From Oryzias latipes (lineage: Eukaryota; Chordata; Actinopteri; Beloniformes; Adrianichthyidae): 64,000 bases of DNA. The notes beneath the pieces were generated by a model, which did no database searches, had not been told where the DNA came from, and worked only from the letters and a program-made list of their open reading frames with translations. The DNA lies in NCBI RefSeq assembly GCF_002234675.1, contig NC_019872.2, positions 12,583,950 through 12,647,949 on the forward strand. The letters are read 5' to 3'. Below are positions 21,273 to 62,747 of the stretch, piece by piece. Both the position numbers and the translations under genes were made by a program. The stretch's first letter is position 1, and each line of letters begins with the position of its first letter.

Positions 21273-24200
21273 TTAGGTACGAGAGCGAGAACGTGAGCGG
21301 GAGCGAGAACGGGAACGCGAGCGGGAGTTGGAGCGCCGAGGCGAGTAACGGGGAGAGGCTCGGTTGCGCCGTGGGGAGTAGCTGCGAGATCGGCTCTTGC
21401 TCCGGCTTCGACTGCGGCTACGAGAGCGAGAGCGACCGTAGCTGGGGCTGCGAGGGCCGTCCGTCTTCACACGAATGTAGGCCGTCTCTCCCTATACACA
21501 AACATGCAAACACAACAATGTTCACCTTGTATAGACGACAACAAGACTCACCAGAAAGCGTTTGTGCCTGTTAGGGTCAAAGGTCCTCACGCTTCTGCCC
21601 TTTCCTTCAGACTCAACACATCATACACACAAAAACATGTTTGTACAGCTATTACAATAAAGACATTGTGTTGACTTATTATTATTACACTGACTTCACA
21701 AGACATCCATGGACTTCAAGACCAGTGCAAATGCAAATCAACAGTAGCATTCCTTTCTAGATTCTTTGGAAATAAATAAAAACAAAGTAGAAAGGTAAAG
21801 GTTACGTTTACATCAAGCCCGAAATTAAGAAATGTCACAATTTAACACAGATGTGCCTCAAAATCTTTTCCAGTAGAGGATAAAACGAATTCTAATGGAA
21901 TTTTAACTGGCATAACCTGGGTGTGTATACAGTGCAGCTTCCATCTTTTACGTCCAAGTGATGTATGTGCACAATAAAAAGTGTAAATGTCCTTATTTGC
22001 AAATGTTGGATATTTGTGAAAACTGGAGATTTACAGGTGCTTAGAGAATTTTCTACTTTTCAGTAAGAAAGTTCTACCAGAATTTACATTTTTTGCTTAG
22101 AAGATACAAAAAACTGCATAAAATGACTTCCACATGTCACCAAAAGTGACAAGATCTGTAAAGGTCCGATACTTCCAAGGTAAATCGGTCTGATTACTTT
22201 ATGATTTATGCAACAACTGTAGAAATTTGTGACAGTATAGTTGCCTTCTCCAAAGATTACGATTACACTCATGAACTGATATGAACCCTCACATTTTTCT
22301 TACATTATGCGACCCCCAAAAAGGCTCAAGCAAACAAGAGGTTGGTAGGTGAACATCACAAGTGCCAAAATCACCATTGAGAGGTATTGTATTTGCATCA
22401 CCTTGCTGTCCCATTTCAGTGGCATAAATATACATTTAGAATTCTGTGCAGTTTGTAAGAATCTGGTCATACAAATCTTTGTAGAATTTGTAAGGGAAAG
22501 GGGTTGTAGATTTTTGTCAAGAGCTTACACACCCGCATACAAATATAAACACACGAGCTAAATGTAGCTTAATTTCCACCCTCCCTTTCTTTCTTTTCCT
22601 TCGCTCAATTTCATAACACGACCCTAAAGCCATTTTGAAGTTAGTGTTAGACTTTCCTTTGTTACGTACCTCGTGGGAGCGGAACTTTGTGTTATCCAAT
22701 TTACGCACAGCGTACGTCATATCTTCCTTGCGCACAAACTCCACCACTCCAGTGCCATCACGGAACACATCAGCATAACATACATCACCTGCCTCCCGCA
22801 TGTGATCCTTCAGGTCCTGCCAGCTTCCACTGGGGGGAAGACCTGGTGGGAAAGAAGGGGATGAGATTTTTTGCAAAACAATTTCAGACGAGTTGGACAG
22901 AAAACAAACCCACCTGACACAATCACCCTGTTCTCGGAGCGCCGGGACGGGGGACCGTACCTCCCCCTTGGCGGTCCCATTCCTCCACCTCCCCCACCAC
23001 CGCCGCCACCACCTCCTCTCCCACTTCTCGGAAACTCCACGCGTAGACGGTAACCATCGTAATCATAACCGTCTCTGCCGTACACAGCATCCTCAGCGTC
23101 CCTGTTTAACAAAATCATGATAAAACATCCATTGAACAATAATAAATATATATATATAAATATATATATTGTTGACAATTATTTCTTAAATTTCTTCTAT
23201 GCTCAAATGTAAATGTAGATTTTAAAAGTCGAAATATTTAGTCAAATAGATGAAAAAAGTTAAGAAAAACAAATGGAATAAAGGCATTCTCATAAATGCA
23301 TTTCTATACATCTCATTCAGACGATTCCCTTAAGAAATTGTTAAGAACACCATAACATTTCTTTCGGAGGGTAAACATACACTACTGTACAACACATTAA
23401 ATCCTTTAAACATGAAGTTTGTCTAAAATTGTTAAAGAATTCTACTTAAGTTGTTTTGGGTGGTCTTTGTGTTCATTTCTGGGTCTTTTCCTTCTTCTTG
23501 AGCAAATAATGTACAAAGCTAACAACTCGTACATTTATCTTTTGGCTGGCCAGAACAAAAACAGTGATGGAAATTCATGTTAGCCACTCATAACACGTGC
23601 AGCAAAGATGCACATTGCTGCATTGCCCCCACGTATTTTGGCGTAAAGTTCGATTCATTTCTCGGTGTGTTCGCCACATCTGATCCATCCCCTGGTCAGC
23701 AGCAGGAACAGTCGCACTCATGGAGCTTTTGGTGGTTTTACTCTAACCACATCCATAATCCTAACATTCACCCTTCCTCTGAGTCCGTGCAGCCAAGAAG
23801 AAAATGCAGCACGTACTTCGAAAATTACGTGCGAGAGGTCAAACCTTATCTCTTTTGAAATATTGAATTGAATCGCATCTTTAAATGTTACAATTATACC
23901 TAATATCAGCATTTAATTTAAAAGAAAGCAATCTGTTTTTTTACGCGGCACTTTCAAAAATTATTCAGGAAGAAGATCAGGTGGTGATCATCGAGCAACC
24001 AGCATCACACGTGGACTTCCAATACAAATTCAGCAGAAATCAACTTTTAAGACCCACTCGCAGTGTTTTTAGATTAGGTATTGCAAAAAACTTTAACCTG
24101 CTCTTGCTATTTGCATTTGGTGAAGTTGAAACACTACTAGCAAGTATGAGTTTCCGTATCATGCAGGCCTCAACAAAAATTGTCAAGAAACTCACCCCTC

Positions 24201-53300: not shown

Positions 53301-54751
53301 TTAAAGCTACTGGGAGATGTTTATTATGTCCTACTATATCACATGGCTTTTCCTTTACACTGATACAAGTCACAAAGTGAGCTGTGAGTAACAACCATGA
53401 ATCTCACACTGCAAACTTAATGATTTAAAAACCTTGTTTTGGGACATTCAAGATATTTTACCAGGTTTTAAGTTGTTTTAACTTATCGTTGCTCTAAAAC
53501 TTTCTGAGCTTTTCTCAGAATCAGCAAAAATGGGAATAATTTTTGTCTAATTAAAAGCTAGGATCTAGAAATAAAGAAATTATTATTAAAATATAATCTG
53601 TTCCTAACACTTGACAATAGACACACTTGGATAAAAAAAACCCTCAAATTGCACTGCAATCTCCCTGAATTTATGACGACTGCAAGACTTATTCTAAGGA
53701 ATTAGAAGAGTCCTGACAAGCCTCAACACAAGGACTGGATTAAACTCATGACATAGATTGCTTCCTTTATAAGTCTTATTTCTAATATAAATAATGTCCA
53801 GGTTAAAAAAGACCAGTATGGAGTTGTTTTATGTCATTGATTATATCACATGACCAGGTTTTTACTGTATAATCTGAAAGTTGTCATGATAGTATTTATT
53901 TGTTTATGTATTAGGATTTTGTACTTGTGTAATTTTGTGTTCAGTGTTATTGTTAGGAAAAAAAGCATATATCCTATCAAATAAACAAAAATGTTCTTGC
54001 CAAGTTTATGCGCAAATCTGGCATAAAAGTAACAGTCTAGTCCTGCATCCACAATATTTACTCAAAATAAATAAATCGTTAGTGGATATTTCTTCTTAAA
54101 GAATGTGTTGGTGAAGACATGCATTACTTCAAATGAGGTGAATGTATGGATCCTAACTCTGTGGAGATGTTGCACTGTTTCTTCATCTGGCCTAACACAC
54201 AAACAGAACGATAATCCAGTCGGCCTTGTCTTTAGTGCAGTCTCCGAGTTGGATGATGTGAAGCAGAACTGAGGCACTGTGGTGCAATATGGGTGCCATC
54301 AGCCATGCAGGATGTCATTATCATCCGAGCCAAAACAGGACACGATTCCTGGGTGAGATCACAGCCACCAATGTCGCATTCAACTAAAAAATGCTTTACG
54401 GTGGCATAAATGGAGGATTTCTCAGTTTAAATAACAAATAATTGCAGAAAACCGGAAGCATGCAAATTCTTCAAAATAAAAGTACTAATAAAGATATCAT
54501 TCCTCCTGATGTCAGCGTGCGCTGGTGACACTTGCTATCTTAATTCATAGCGAACCTCCTGCGAAACTAAAGTCAAGATGGTCTGCAACAAAATTCGTAC
54601 ATATTTTTTTTTAAAAGTCTGCTGTAACCCCCTTTTCAATTTCACCTGAATCATTGCCATGGAAACAGAGAACCCCATATGCGCGTCACCTCTAAGCAAC
54701 CAGGGTTTTCATCCAACTCACCTTCTTGCTTTTACTACCGTCGGCCCCCAT
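47387..54751 (-). CDS. rskr: RSKR (SGK494), ribosomal-protein-S6-kinase-related protein kinase
   Basis: A Ser/Thr kinase of the AGC/RSK-like group with little known function. Thirteen coding exons: 54722-54751, 52636-52923, 52456-52539, 51205-51273, 50873-50936, 50133-50240, 49280-49320, 48660-48687, 48338-48427, 48158-48246, 47902-48012, 47710-47823 and 47387-47620. They join to 449 aa (human about 410). [10 protein letters not shown] gives a Gly-2 start, as in human MGA, fitting N-myristoylation. Kinase parts: [14 protein letters not shown] (Gly loop, about 109), AVK (Lys about 134), HRDVKMEN (about 224), DFGLS (about 244), CGTIQYMAPEV and [11 protein letters not shown]. The N-terminal [12 protein letters not shown] block matches human RSKR. 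The Pro/Ser-rich tail of about 75 residues after VEV is longer than in human and unconserved. All core catalytic residues are present. aldoc to its left is also near it in human. Confidence 0.94.
49321..50132. other. rskr intron with no further feature
   Basis: An AT-rich intron of about 800 bp with T tracts near 49970-49996. No exon or delimited repeat was recognised. Confidence 0.45.
51780..51897. repeat. Short piece of a dispersed teleost repeat
   Basis: Phrases AGAACCCGCTGCATTCCTTT, GGGGTCACGAGGTTGCTGGA and GAACAGGTCGCCAGTCTGTT follow the order of the common fish repeat also found at 25311-25613. It lies in the rskr intron between exons 51205-51273 and 52456-52539. Confidence 0.65.
52924..54721. 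other. rskr first intron
   Basis: A 1.8-kb AT-rich intron between the ten-codon first exon and exon 2. No exon, RNA gene or delimited repeat was recognised. Confidence 0.45.
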
Positions 54752-55080: not shown

Positions 55081-55225
55081 TTTTATTTTGAACTTTGAAC
55101 ATAAAAAGCAGGGCGATGTTTACTTTCGTGGTTTTACTTTGTCAACCAATGCAGTTCCTACAAAATAAAAGAAAACTGAGCTTTAAATAAACAGGTAGAA
55201 AACGTGGGTGAGTAGAGCGTTGGCT

Positions 55226-55297
55226 TTAGTCGTCGTCGTCAAAGTTCTTCTTGCCCTCTGGAGGTTTGGGGCCGCCTGCTGGTTTAGCCATGATGAT
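55226..55297 (-). other. cct8: cct8 distal last coding exon (canonical tail)
   Basis: A strong acceptor (CATTTTCTTTCAG) is followed by 23 codons IIMAKPAGGPKPPEGKKNF plus four Asp and a TAA at 55226-55228. This corresponds to the human tail MAKPAGGPKPPSGKKDWDDD. It is phase 0 with the donor at 58588. A poly(A) signal lies at 55082-55087. Confidence 0.9.
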
Positions 55298-58200
55298 CTG
55301 AAAGAAAATGAAAATAAAAATAATTCCTACCAGAAGAAATAAAAGACAAATCCATGCAACTCAAAAAATAACATGGTCAGACAACAACACCCATTAAAGT
55401 TAGAAAAGAATTCTAATGAAAAGTACTAGAAATGCATGTGACAGGGGAAAATTTGGTTCAAATGACTGCAAATTCCACCCAATAAGTCTACAAAATATAG
55501 TAAGGAAATTAAGCCTAAAATTGGCTCACTCCGAACCAAGTTCTGTCTGCAACTCAAGACGTAAATTTCTGATGAACTATGGCTGCTCTGCCAAAAATGC
55601 CCAAGAAAATGGCAGATTTTTTTTATTTTGCCAAAAAAAAGAAAAGAAAAAGGGCATAATTATACTCTAAAAGACACTGGGGACGCTTTAAAAATAGATC
55701 AAAAGATGATCTGAGTGGGACCTAAAATGTTTTCTCTAGAAAACTTTGCACCACAAGAAATGAACAAGTTGGGCAATAAAATCTGTTTTTCTAGTCTTCT
55801 TTACAAGTTTCCAAGAACAAACAAACACAATACCTCTTGAGGATGTCCACTGAAAGAAAAAGGATTACATGCATCATGCAATCACGCAACATCCAGTTTG
55901 TTTCATGCTGCATCACAGTGACACACGCCGTGTTGTTAGAAGTACTAGAAAAAGTGAATCTCAAAATTGTTTGCATCTCTGCAGAGTTTGTCGTTAGTAG
56001 TGACAGATCTGTTGTTTTGCATTTAGTGTCCTTTGAGTTCATCTGCAGTCTTTAGTTAGAAGTGCACACACGTTCCGAGACCTACTGCGGGGGCTCTGTG
56101 TGCGCGAGAGCCCGCTAATGGGTGTCAAAATGATCAGGCTCTTCGTCCCAACCATCCTTGTCCCAATGGCCTCTCTGCTTGGGAGTTTTGGGTCCCCCTG
56201 CAGGCTTAGCCATGATGATCTGGGTTGCGCACACACAAACACACACTTAATATTTGCTGGTTTTTGTTGTTTCCACTGAATGCCATGTTTTTATTATGAC
56301 CGGCTTACTGCATCTTGGATTCTAAAATGTTGATGGCCATTTTACAAAGCTTCAATTAACAGGCTGCAGTGATGCCCTGAATTTCACAATGTCCAGCATG
56401 AATTTCTGCTTTTATTCTCTGTTCTATGTTATGGCCACGTTCTCCTACACAAACATCTAGATCATCCACTACTTTACAATCATGAGTTTGTTCAAAAAAG
56501 CTACATCAAATAGCAGGAACCAATAGTGTCACATGTAGAATTCTGGATGTGACTTTATCCTTCATATCTAGTTAGTTCATCATTTCCTGTTATAGGTTTG
56601 TTTTCTCCATTGGATGAGAAGGAAATCTCACTCAAGTAAACTACTGGTCAAGTTTTAGAACATGCCATTTTCAGGTTTTTGATGAAAGGTAAAAAAAATG
56701 TTTTATGTAATGTCTTGTTGCACTCAAAAATAAAAAACTAGGGCAAACGAGGAACTTCTTTCTTTATCAGAAGTGTGATGTTCTCTTAGACTAGGGGTGT
56801 GTATCCCAAGTGTCTGGAGCTACGATACGTATACCGTTACATGTCCTATGATAAAATACATATCGCAATATAGTAGCAGAACACATTTTCTGTGTTTTTA
56901 ACATTACGACTGAAAAAAACTCTACCTAGGGCTGCACGATATGAGGAAAACTCGCGATATGCGATATTGGTAATTAATATTGTGATAACGATATAAATTG
57001 CGGTAAATAAACAAATAGCAAAAAAAAAAAAAAACATAATTTCCATTTCACTGAAACAGTTTAGAAATTATACTCCAAATGACCCTTGTCGACGTAGGAG
57101 GCAAACATCAAACATAAAAGGGCTCATCTGATTGATCAACAACGTAAACGGGTCCTTCTAATTGGTTAAATGTATAAAGGGATTTATTTCATTTGTTTAA
57201 TATTTCAAGCTGCCATGAGTTTGTTTTAGCACATTTAAGGTAAACATTTATTGCGATTTTTGACATCTTTTACGGTATGCATATTGCACAGCTTGATGTG
57301 GCGAAAATGATAAATTTGTGCAGGCCTAACTCTACCTGAATATTATTACAGCTTTTATTATAATAAAATGGTAAAAGTCGTTTTATTTAATGATCACAAT
57401 GTTAAGATCTGCAACTGTATCGCATATACAAGTTGCTTTTACCAAAGCAAATTCACCCATAGTGCTTTGATTTTGGTAACTTGAAATATATTTGTTCTTA
57501 AAGGAAACAGTCAAATATCTTTCAGTATAAGAAAAAAACAAAACAAGAACAGAATGAATTTAACCACCAATAAGGTTCTAAAAGTATGATTGAGGAAATT
57601 AAGAGCGGTTTATTTTTAACATTGCTAAATGTAGCTTCTCCAGTATCTTTAAATGGTTCAGGAACCAGAACGGTGCTTCAATAACAAACAAACACGAATT
57701 CTTTCTAGAAACTAAGTGTCATAAGGCAACATTAACAGGGTGAAGGAGACGCTTTAATGTGGCTAAGATGCTTTGTTTACATGACAGTCTGCACTGCAGC
57801 TCCGTTTTCTCACACGCAAAAGTAAACACGGATTTCACCGCTCATCGCCACGGCGTTGGCCTTTTGCAGAGCGTTGTACACATCACTCTGATCTATAAGA
57901 TCGCTAAACTAGAATCTATTGCATTGAGGTTCTGCAGAACTTTGGCTCCGTGCACGGCTGATGCTCAGTGCATGAGTCGCTGTGCAGCTGCACTGCTTCA
58001 CTCGTTCTTATCTGAGCACGCTGCAAAGCACCGCCATCCGTGTTTTTATGTTGATGGCAGCAACATGGCACAGAGTTTCAGTTTGGTACCCATCCTAAGT
58101 AAAAACTAAGTAGTGCACGTGTCCTAACAACAAAACAAGCTGCTTCTCACAGATCTTGCAGTCTTTCTTCTTCCGCCTCTGTATTACCTGCTTCTGTTTA

Positions 58201-61200
58201 GTGGAGGAACAGACGCAGCAAGTGCATGATGGAGATGTCCTTCATGGTCAAAATAAATGCAGGAGCAATTGTGTCGCTTGAGAAGTATAAACTCAGGATT
58301 TCATCACAGTTAGTATGAACTAGAGCCTGCGATTGATGCGATGGCAGGTTGCTGTAAGGTGTAAACCAGGCTTTAGTTGCAACTTTCAAAAATAAAAAGG
58401 TACCAATATAATTGGGGGGGGTTCTAAAAATCATGACTGGTAGTGTATATTTCTACTGGAAAAAACATGTTTTTGTATCAAAATAATATTAAGCGTTTCA
58501 AGATTTTGTCACTCGCAGCATAAATCCAAAAGTACAGTATTTAATTTAGTGTCCAACTGAGTTTTTGGATTAGTGTAGCTGTCATACCTGATCCACTCTC
58601 AGCACTGTGACAGCAGCATTTGTGGCCATCCTAATCCCCCAGTGTTTGACCAGGTATGGGTCCAGGATGCCAGCTTTGAGCATGTCCTTCACTGCAGGGC
58701 CCTCTCCCTGCAGACGAGTGCCATTTTTAGCTTTCATTTAAATCACAACAAGTGAAGATTCAACTTGACCCTTAATTAACACCGCAAACTGTCTATAGAA
58801 AATGTGTTTTTAAAAATCAAAAGAGCAAGTAGCTAAAAAAAGAGATGCATTTTCATCATACTGGTGACGCCTAAAGAGTCATCAAGGAGGATAAAGTTAG
58901 AATAGTTTAGGCAACTTTATCAATAATTTCAAAATAAAGCACACATTTACATACCTCAATGTCAAAGCCTGTGTTTTTGTTTCCCTCATGATGAGCAGCG
59001 TACAGTTTAGAAATGAGCTCATTACCCTTGACCCCAGAGTTCTCGGCCAGAGCGCGAGGCAGCGCCTCAAAGGCGTCTGCAAACTTTTTGATGGAATACT
59101 GCTCCAGACCAGGGCAGGACTGCAGAAAGACAGAAGCAGATGCTTGTAAAATCAAAAAGCTGGCACTGTGTGAACCTAATGTGTCTCTGATGATACACCA
59201 AAGTCGTGGTACCTCTCCATATGAGGTGATCTGCTTGGCCAGCTCAATCTCTGTGGCTCCTCCTCCAGGTACCAGTCGCTTGTCCTGCATGAGAGACACA
59301 CTGTGGCTGCTGTGTCGACCAAAAAGACCCCCTCTGATCCTCTTTTGATCCCATTGGTCTTTTAATTATGATTATGCCTTTTATTTTAACCTAAAATCAA
59401 AAGCGAGGTCGAGCTTAATTTTCTAAAAATGTCCTCAATCGTCAGAAAAATGCCACAAGAACATGTTAAAAACAAAATTTTCATCTGAGTGGGTCTTTAA
59501 AATCTGCTGGGATTCAAGATCTTCTGTCTTACATCATGAACTTACCCTGACCAGAACCTTGAAGGTGTTGACTCCGTCATCAACAGCTCTCTCAATGTCA
59601 TCCATCAGGTTGTCAGTGGAGCCTCTGATCACCACAGTTGAAATGGCCCCATCCTCTTTTTCTGCAGAGCAATAAAGATCAGGTTATTTCTACGTCTCAT
59701 TTCAAACGAGTCAAACCCCGAACAGTAAAAAACAGACACTAACCGTGTTTGAAAACCACCACCTGAGTGTCTCCCACCTCTGCCACATACACATTATCGC
59801 AGTGACCCATTTCATCTGGAGTTGGAGCAGTCTAAAATGCATAAAGAAAGTTATTGCATGTTTCGGTATTTCATCACCTGATCAAAGGAAGTCACACTCA
59901 CTATTCTCGGCAGAGCGACTGCGCCCACAGTCTTGCAGAGCCTCCTGAGGTCCCACTTGCTGTTCAGCCTAGGAGGAAACACAAAAGAGGACTGAAATGC
60001 AACATACAACATCGCTTACCACTTCAGTGACGTGGAAACACTAAAAATATGGGTTCAAATACGATGCAACAGTTTTAACAAAAGGCAGCTCTGACCTGAC
60101 AACCATTAGCTTGTACTTGTTGGCGTAGTGGAGCGCCATGTCAGCCACTTTGCCCCCAGTTACCACCACGCTGGCGCCAGCATCCTTGATGGCTTTCACC
60201 TGAGACTCCATCAGGTCCTCCTCTCCCTTACTGAAGTTCATGAGCTCTTTAGCGTTATTTATCAACACTGTTCCCTGTGGGAAAAACAAAGCAGAAAAAA
60301 GTTGTGTCCTTAAGCTGCCTTAACTTTTATTTGAACTTCAAAATAAAAAATAAAAAAATAAAATTCCTCACAAACATTTTCATGAGGTGTAATTCAAATA
60401 TTCCATAAAATAGGCTTCTATAATCAGATGTAAAGGAAATCTTTTATCAGACATAGACAAGGAAATCCAAATAGGATTGTAACAATCAGAAACCCATAAA
60501 ATTTTAAATTTCAGAATTTCAATCCATTAAAAAAATGTATTTCCTTTAAATGTGGTCTCCATGTAAACTAGTGTATCCAAATCAAGAGAAAGAACAGAAA
60601 TTCTGGTAAAACGAATCTGCTCAAGAACAAATACAGAAGTTTAAACAGCATGAAAAAATTTGGATTAATCAAAAACTAAATCCATAGTAATACAAAAAAA
60701 TTTACAATTTCCAATCCAATATTCCAATATTATATTATATATTATAATTTTGTATTCCAATATTATATTAGAAAACTATTTCCAATATCCTATAATCCAA
60801 TATTGACCCACCAAATTGATCAGTTGGTTTCATTTCAAGCAAATTCTTTTATTTTGTCCCCCCTTGATTGTTTCATTTTCTATTTATAAAAATTTATAAA
60901 ATACTTATGGAAATTTTGCAAAACTCAATGAAATCTTAAAAACTTTGAATTTGGACTAATTGAAACCCGTTACCTTTGTCTCTGTCACCATGCAGTCAAA
61001 GGGGCAGGAAAATACAGCGATCTTGGCATCTTTAACTGATGTGACGTCTCCCTCTGCCTCCTTCTTAAAGACCATTCCATGAAGCACGGATGATGCCGTC
61101 ACGCCACAACCCTGAAAACAAGACAGACTGTAAATTAGAGACAAGTAAAACGTGGTTAAACACACATACAAAAGTAAAAAAAAAAAGAATCCTTACCGGG

Positions 61201-62747
61201 ATTTTGCACACTCTGACGTTATCCACATTGAAACTGCCAGACTCTGGGAAAATGGAAACTATGGCACACAAATGAAACATGAAGGAGGAAGTGAGATGAG
61301 GGTCATCATTTTTACCACCGGCAATCTGGACAGCTCGACTCACCGCACGCTTGGGCAATAAGGTTGGCAAAAAAGTCCTCGTTGCCGTACTGTTTACTCA
61401 TGACGGCGGTGCGGATGAAGGATGCAGCCTCATTGACGTCATGGAGATTTTTGGCTGAAGAACAAACGCAGTCCGGCAGGATCTCCAGGGCCTTCTTACA
61501 CGCCTGCTCATAACCTTCAATCACCTGTCAAGGAGAATAGGAAACCCTTCCATCGCTGCTATTTTGGGTCAGATTGAAATATTTGTGTATAATCTGTAAT
61601 ATTTAATCTTAGTGGTGTCGTGCTAATGCTTTACCTCCGACACAGACAACCCCATTCTGAGGAGCTCCTCTGCCATCTCCAGAAGAGCTCCAGCAAACAC
61701 CAAGACAAAGTTGGTTCCATCTCCAACTTCCTGCTCTTGCATGTGGGATGCCATCACAATCATTTTGGCTGCTGGATGTTGCACCTGCAATATAGTTATC
61801 ATAAAAAACAAACAAAAAAAAAAAGAAAAAGTTTCAATTAAAGGTTAACTTTTGTGGTTTTGATGGCATTTTAAAGAGCTGCAACCAAACGTCTTCCCAC
61901 CTCGAGCTCTCGGAGGATCGTTGCAGCATCATTGGTGACAAACAGCTTTTCCAAGTGGTTGATTACCATTTTGTTCATACCTGGGAGAGAATCACATCAT
62001 TAGAGGGATTCTTTAACATTTCAATCAGCAAACAAAACCATTTCTGACATTCATGCAAAGTCATGAACTCACCGTTAGGTCCATAGGCGGTGCGCGTGGT
62101 TTGAGAAAGCTCCTTACATGCTCTGATGTTACGAAAGACTGCCTCTTCTAAGCCTGAAAAGTGCTGGAGGACAACAATACATTTTGGCATTCATATTATA
62201 TCATCTACAAAGCAGTGACTGACATACCTTTAAATTATAATAATTTGTAAATATGAGGGGCAATGGAGGCCAAAATTACCCACCCTATAAAAATAAAGTT
62301 GTGTATAATGAAGATCAGCAAATAAAAAAAAGCAAGTATTACATCCTTCCTCTTAACAGTTAGCTAAGCATCTTCTGGATCAGGAGCTTGACACTGACAG
62401 CAGCGTAAAACTACAACATAATCCAAATATATAAAAACGCCAAACGCTTTGAAATAAGCAAAATACTGAGATAATGAGAACAAACAAATAAAGGGGAAAA
62501 TAATAGCCCCCGTACTGCATCAGGTCTCTATTCTGCAGCTTAGTTCCAGCGGCCTGCATGGCTTCTAGAACTCTCCCACATGACTAAACGACGATGCTAA
62601 ATCATGGGCTAGCGGTAGTTAGCACGCTACTTCCCGACTACGCTATAAAATGCTTCTTTCACCTCAAAACCCGAATCAAATTCTTACCTTCGCACCGTCT
62701 TTTAACATTTGGGCAAAGCCCGGAGCCTTAGGGATGTGAAGGGCCAT
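55226..62747 (-). CDS. cct8: T-complex protein 1 subunit theta (CCT8)
   Basis: One of eight subunits of the cytosolic TRiC/CCT chaperonin that folds actin, tubulin and WD proteins with ATP. Fourteen shared exons: 62688-62747, 62073-62163, 61901-61980, 61635-61784, 61344-61524, 61197-61258, 60974-61111, 60096-60274, 59902-59968, 59744-59831, 59546-59661, 59213-59284, 58955-59119 and 58588-58707. They encode 523 residues, and the last exon 55226-55297 adds 23 for 546 aa (human 548). Nucleotide-binding motifs are AYGPNG, NDAATIL, GDGTN (about 98-102) and VPGGGATE. The N-terminus MALHIPKAPGFAQMLKDGAK is nearly identical to human. The usual tail starts IIMAKPAGGPKPPEGKK and ends in four Asp. An alternative last exon at 56115-56219 is described separately. 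All introns are GT-AG. Confidence 0.97.
55500..55735 (+). repeat. TTAA-type inverted-repeat element, copy 6 (short form)
   Basis: The right end is GATGATCTGAGTGGGACCTAA, preceded by CTAAAAGACACTGGGGAC and GCTCTGCCAAAAATGCCCAAG. The left end is degraded. It lies between the two alternative last exons of cct8 and contains the minus-strand AATAAA at 55622-55627. Confidence 0.65.
56115..56219 (-). other. cct8: cct8 proximal alternative last exon (duplicated, different tail)
   Basis: An acceptor (GCGCAACCCAG) is followed by 34 codons in the same phase 0: IIMAKPAGGPKTPKQRGHWD then KDGWDEEPDHFDTH and TAG at 56115-56117. The first 11 codons equal the distal exon in protein but differ at four silent sites (Lys, Pro, Gly, Gly). 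The acceptor's pyrimidine tract is weaker than that of the distal exon (TG-rich). Use of it would give a 557-aa protein. No strong donor follows, so it is most likely an alternative terminal exon. A poly(A) signal at 55622-55627 lies inside a repeat. Confidence 0.75.
56639..58445. mobile_element. Tc1/mariner-like element, composite
   Basis: The left end AACTACTGGTCAAGTTTTAG and right end (inverse CACTACCAGTCATGATTTTT) are imperfect inverted repeats of the type seen in fish Tc1 elements (CTACTGGTCAAAAGTTTTAGA), each next to TA (56637-56638 and 58446-58447). The span is 1807 bp. Removing the nested 402-bp hAT MITE leaves about 1.4 kb, a usual Tc1 size. No transposase block was recognised inside, and other hAT-like scraps near 56790 (TAGGGGTGTGTAT) suggest several insertions. 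It occupies the cct8 intron before the proximal last exon. Confidence 0.55.
56927..57328. mobile_element. hAT-family MITE, nested, perfect 8-bp target duplication
   Basis: The ends are TAGGGCTGCACGAT and the inverse of TAGGCCTGCACAAAT. The octamer ACTCTACC occurs at 56919-56926 and again at 57329-57336, directly flanking the element. Size 402 bp, no ORF. Eight-base duplications are characteristic of hAT transposition, and the perfect duplication suggests a recent insertion. Confidence 0.88.
59321..59500 (-). repeat. TTAA-bounded inverted-repeat element, copy 7 (short form, inverted)
   Basis: The left end is AAAAAGACCCCCTCTGATCC and the right end CATCTGAGTGGGTCTTTAA (TTAA at 59497-59500). Next to the right end is CACAAGAACATGTTAAAAAC, shared with copy 5. 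It lies in a cct8 intron. Confidence 0.75.
60275..60973. other. cct8 intron, AT-rich
   Basis: A 700-base intron with a run of related AATATTATATT units at about 60719-60805. Nothing else was recognised. Confidence 0.5.

Follow-up and report, generated by a model that had tools for sequence, protein, structure and literature searches.

The last coding exon of cct8 is present in two tandem copies in the medaka genome. This arrangement probably goes back to an old tandem duplication after which both copies were retained as protein-coding exons, the proximal one as an alternative last exon with its own poly(A) site. Judged from its sequence, the proximal exon is very probably coding and used. Joining of exon 14 to the strong distal acceptor would give the ordinary CCT-theta tail, and joining to the nearer, weaker and GT-rich acceptor would give a tail with 11 additional residues, two Trp and three His.

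The window, i.e., the whole stretch of 64,000 nt that was analysed (C14:12583950-12647949), belongs to a genome of 734 Mb in 25 contigs and contains a complete cct8 coding region on its minus strand. Exons were located with a human CCT8 query sequence, and the 13 introns between the shared exons were fitted among GT/GC-AG candidates, with GT-AG as the best fit for 13 out of 13. Exon 14 ends at 58588 after 1569 nt, corresponding to 523 codons, in phase 0, so that both last exons join in frame behind this donor, as the sequence-only reading had proposed. The other 13 donors of the gene scored 3.0-10.5 on the splice-site matrix used. The best matches of exon 14 were solved CCT-theta chains (E ~1e-13), and the full-length theta sequence of the gene identifies it as CCT8 (TRiC subunit theta). 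A genome search with the joined protein found one theta locus. It reported 21 matches, with 14 assigned to exons of cct8 and 7 on other contigs at 30-46% identity, the latter being probably other CCT-like genes. Exon 1 and the distal exon did not appear as separate matches in this search, which short pieces can escape, and no retrocopy of the proximal-exon mRNA was found with it in the species' own genome.

Counted to the distal exon, the last cct8 intron (55298-58587) measures about 3.29 kb compared to 70-699 nt in the other 13. It contains a dispersed element, called young, at 56926-57318, which occurred with 92-96% identity over its length in at least 39 other places of the genome and as three further partial matches, with scoring limited to 40 of 5172 candidates. 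About 330 nt beyond the AATAAA of cct8 begins a possible first coding exon of 10 residues (54722-54751, minus strand, gtgagt donor, read by eye). Rfam matches between 50000 and 64000 of the window amounted to zero.

Table 1. Features of the cct8 last-exon region in window coordinates. Splice sites were scored with a splice-site matrix, and acceptors were ranked among 196 AG sites.
Feature	Position	Strand	Remarks
Shared coding exons, cct8 (n = 14)	58588..62747	-	523 codons, 0 internal stops
Shared donor CAG/gtatga after 58588	58582..58590	-	score 8.0
Proximal acceptor, GT-rich tract tttgtgtgtgcgcaacccag	56220..56239	-	score 4.9, rank 21/196
Proximal candidate last coding exon	56115..56219	-	reads IIMAKPAGGPKTPKQRGHWDKDGWDEEPDHFDTH + stop
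Proximal-tail peptide			DGWDEEPDHFDTH
Possible donor AAC/gtgtgt, weak	56066..56074	-	score 5.0; 43 nt past proximal stop (hand count); would permit splicing to distal exon
Dispersed repeat carrying AATAAA	55550..55727 (typical match extent)	-	at least 39 further genome places, 72-88% identity (40 candidates scored of 1439)
Sole AATAAA between the exons; candidate proximal poly(A) signal	55622..55627	-	T-rich stretch downstream
Possible donor GGA/gtgagc	55525..55533	-	score 5.6; 585 nt past proximal stop (hand count); use would predict mRNA decay
Distal acceptor, strong pyrimidine tract	55298..55317	-	score 11.5, rank 2/196
Distal last coding exon	55226..55297	-	reads IIMAKPAGGPKPPEGKKNFDDDD + stop; ordinary CCT-theta tail
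AATAAA of distal exon	55082..55087	-	

The two last exons are adjacent, homologous and coding in equal phase, as is characteristic of tandem duplicated alternative last exons. Both are intact, each with an acceptor and its own stop, and the proximal acceptor is on the weak side. Their positions, phase and minus-strand readings agree with those given by the sequence-only reading. Together with the distal exon, the shared exons encode a protein of 546 aa, and together with the proximal exon one of 557 aa whose tail is TPKQRGHWDKDGWDEEPDHFDTH, both with zero internal stops.

The tandem duplication proposed earlier is borne out by a direct repeat of 41 nt at 88% identity (56182-56222 and 55260-55300), which consists of the acceptor CAG and 38 nt, by the single locus genome-wide and by comparisons of the flanks. 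Homology begins at the acceptor CAG and fades past codon 13. Over the first 13 codons, 33 of 39 nt are identical, and none of 300 shuffles were equally good. Alignments of the upstream 197 nt, the upstream 497 nt and the downstream 200 nt were matched by 254, 217 and 228 of 300 shuffles, respectively, and the coding tails of the two exons also fail to align at the DNA level (156 of 300). Flanks free of residual similarity would be expected either from an old duplication, in which introns drifted past recognition while the coding part was kept, or from one that copied little beyond the exon. The back-translated pattern of the shared peptide IIMAKPAGGPK matched the window twice but none of its 100 shuffled versions (expectation 0.00), and in the peptide search of the 734-Mb genome both scored candidates were the two last exons. 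When the human CCT8 query was compared with the window, the last segment (523-548) alone matched two separate places; other overlapping matches were neighbouring exons running on into introns.

Silent changes dominate the divergence between the copies. The 11 codons of IIMAKPAGGPK hold four differences, all of them silent, as had been noted before (4 at 8.0 silent sites, 0 at 25.0 nonsynonymous sites). Extending the comparison to all 13 alignable codons raises the count to six differences, of which five are silent and one changes an amino acid (Pro/Thr). The probability of so few amino-acid changes is 0.0019-0.0034 for 11 codons, a limit that was chosen after the fact, and 0.0026-0.0043 for 13 codons, over which the silent excess persists. 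The test pools both copies, so that part of the signal comes from constraint acting on the distal copy by itself. Divergence at silent sites (dS) between the copies is about 0.82, a value based on only 8 silent sites and too coarse for precise dating. The silent bias argues against a relaxed proximal copy, short of strict exclusion, and together with the coding-like proximal tail it favours the selection on protein that the sequence-only reading had suggested.

Composition provides evidence independent of this comparison, since the proximal tail is unalignable with the distal one and appears coding-like in itself. Seven acidic residues and two Trp occur among its 23 residues. In tests selected after the tail had been seen, the frequency of at least seven D/E in 23 was 0.0002 for random open frames generated with local composition and 0.0019 for those shuffled versions of the tail that stayed open. 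None of 702 overlapping open windows in intronic DNA of the minus strand reached this number, the highest being six. When both strands of the whole stretch were counted, real exons among them, 144 of 39262 open windows did so, at 17 distinct places. Five open windows combined it with two Trp; three of these are the proximal tail and two represent one other place (22971-23042). An open run of 23 codons is by itself unremarkable (0.24). The GC content of the proximal and distal exons is 0.52 and 0.53, respectively, and that of the flanks 0.36-0.39.

The distal tail is acidic and resembles the tails of solved CCT-theta chains, in line with its earlier description as ordinary. IIMAKPAGGPK is common to the solved structures, which we take to be mammalian in this comparison, and to the medaka exons. 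In the solved tails (KKDWDxD), the Trp of KDWD is the counterpart of the first Trp in the proximal tail, and the distal fish tail has Phe at this place. The PPxGKK part, in contrast, is kept in the distal exon, which therefore resembles a straight orthologue, with the proximal exon resembling a derived copy. Compared to the solved tails, the proximal one differs in being 11 residues longer than the distal and in ending with PDHFDTH. The His end described earlier is thus right for the final residue, although the end is DTH rather than a bare His. Likewise, the tail that had been called different, charged and Trp-containing does carry Trp and charge but is less alien than this implies, as its net charge past GGPK is -4 compared to -3 in the distal tail (His excluded) and its first Trp matches solved chains. 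Tails as short as these would be expected to lack ordered structure.

The splice signals would allow both joinings. The score of the proximal acceptor lies inside the range of cct8 acceptors (3.3-13.3), with 3 of the 13 other acceptors scoring lower. The highest-ranking acceptor of the 196 is an AG at 55326, located 29 nt upstream of the distal acceptor. From the shared donor, the distance is 2369 nt to the proximal acceptor, which comes first in line, and 3291 nt to the distal one. GT-rich tracts are able to bind CELF and TDP-43 proteins, so the GT-rich proximal tract would suit regulated use, and the switch between last exons may perhaps operate through it. In the predicted RNA fold of 56050-56300, the GU tract at the proximal acceptor pairs across the exon; folding across the proximal exon had a z of -1.97, with 4 of 200 shuffles equally stable.

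The proximal form would most likely end at the AATAAA at 55627, 488 nt past the proximal stop. Between the exons, ATTAAA is absent, and the weaker variants ACTAAA (56056, 56027) and TTTAAA (55692) occur. Because the sole AATAAA between the exons sits inside a dispersed repeat, a mobile element may have supplied the proximal poly(A) site, or the site may be unused; AATAAA was present in three of seven aligned copies of this repeat (7 of 39 aligned). Also between the last exons, at 55834-55849, an acceptor-like site (8.7, rank 3/196) is followed by 16 nt and a weak donor GAG/gtattg (3.3), possibly a 3' UTR micro-exon, or chance.

The confinement of the AATAAA to a repeat also speaks for a different use of the proximal exon, in which it would be included as a cassette ahead of the distal exon and the latter would become 3' UTR. 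The donor-like sites past the proximal stop, at 55331 (6.6), 55530 (5.6), 56072 (5.0) and 56086 (3.9), would serve such splicing. The highest-scoring of them, 55331, is implausible, as the intron left in front of the distal exon would measure only 33 nt. Nonsense-mediated decay usually requires more than 50-55 nt from stop to junction. Use of 56072, with its junction 43 nt past the stop, predicts a stable mRNA and hence the same protein, and use of 55530, with its junction 585 nt past the stop, predicts decay, in which case cct8 output would be reduced, with the proximal exon acting as a poison exon. However, the candidate donors are on the weak side compared to cct8's own 14, and a poison exon requires no conserved peptide, whereas the proximal peptide is conserved and its tail coding-like. 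Splicing on to the distal exon is thus considered unlikely next to an alternative last exon.

A tandem copy that is decaying and never spliced into mRNA would account for the weaker proximal acceptor, and the silent test owes part of its strength to the distal copy. A dead copy would be expected to show amino-acid losses at a dS of about 0.8. However, none of the 25 nonsynonymous sites in the 11 codons has changed, the reading frame and its stop are preserved, and the composition resembles that of coding sequence. An age estimated from 8 silent sites is highly uncertain, which leaves room for a younger dead copy, and dead copies altogether appear quite improbable. Chance similarity or an assembly artefact could be invoked since the shared stretch spans just 41 nt, and is hardly credible. 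Chance is excluded by the shuffles of the first 13 codons and by the pattern expectation, and copies that differ at 6 of 39 sites between unrelated flanks are unlike a false assembly repeat. An old duplication with two retained coding copies, the proximal one an alternative last exon, thus stays the preferred reading. Points against it are the short alignable part (13 codons, six differences), the coding tails that fail to align, the low rank of the proximal acceptor and the location of the sole AATAAA within a repeat.

The nearest mechanistic parallel to the exon pair appears to be KRAS 4A/4B. In a preprint, the use of these alternative last coding exons is described as established and 4A is dated to the jawed-vertebrate ancestor (PMC9882654). 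In both genes, two related last exons follow one shared exon, so that a single folded body may carry either of two disordered tails (for KRAS, PMC9882654). Use and age are described for KRAS there, whereas the use of the cct8 pair is predicted from DNA sequence; 4A is reported as captured from NRAS exon 4, whereas the source in cct8 would most simply be the neighbouring exon (PMC9882654). Capture from a second cct8 was considered as well and set aside, as a second locus was not found in the genome, although a lost one is conceivable. Among human tandem duplicated exon substitutions, 77 of 236 are reported to swap C-termini, and C-terminal swaps are enriched (PMC9741552). These likewise consist of homologous neighbouring coding exons in either/or use (PMC9741552); they differ in that CCT8 occurs zero times in the main text and that splicing of the cct8 pair is predicted. 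CCT8 occurs zero times in the main text of PMC4465641 as well, and "isoform" and "splice" occur zero times in the main text of PMC3988795 on Antarctic fish CCT. A partial literature search found no report of a CCT8 tail isoform, and an automatic genome-annotation entry may exist. The type of event is already known, and the CCT8 instance is provisionally new. The patterns IIMAKPAGGPK and GHWDKDxWDEEPD had zero matches in viral and prokaryote contigs, where fish are not expected, so this has no bearing on conservation.

TRiC is commonly regarded as a constant assembly of eight subunits that owes its diversity to separate paralogue genes. If spliced, polyadenylated and translated as predicted, the proximal form would place its tail between the rings of TRiC, where effects on the complex are possible; the tissue-specific TRiC raised by the sequence-only reading is speculation. 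In human TRiC, C-termini touch tubulin like a net according to a cryo-EM study (PMC10188570). Tentatively, and with more doubt than confidence, some fish may make two kinds of TRiC, distinguished solely by the CCT-theta tail in the interior of the complex, through tissue-regulated choice of the last exon, with the longer Trp/His tail altering the holding of clients such as tubulin. A natural tail swap in one TRiC subunit would be a ready-made test of the role of the C-terminal tail.
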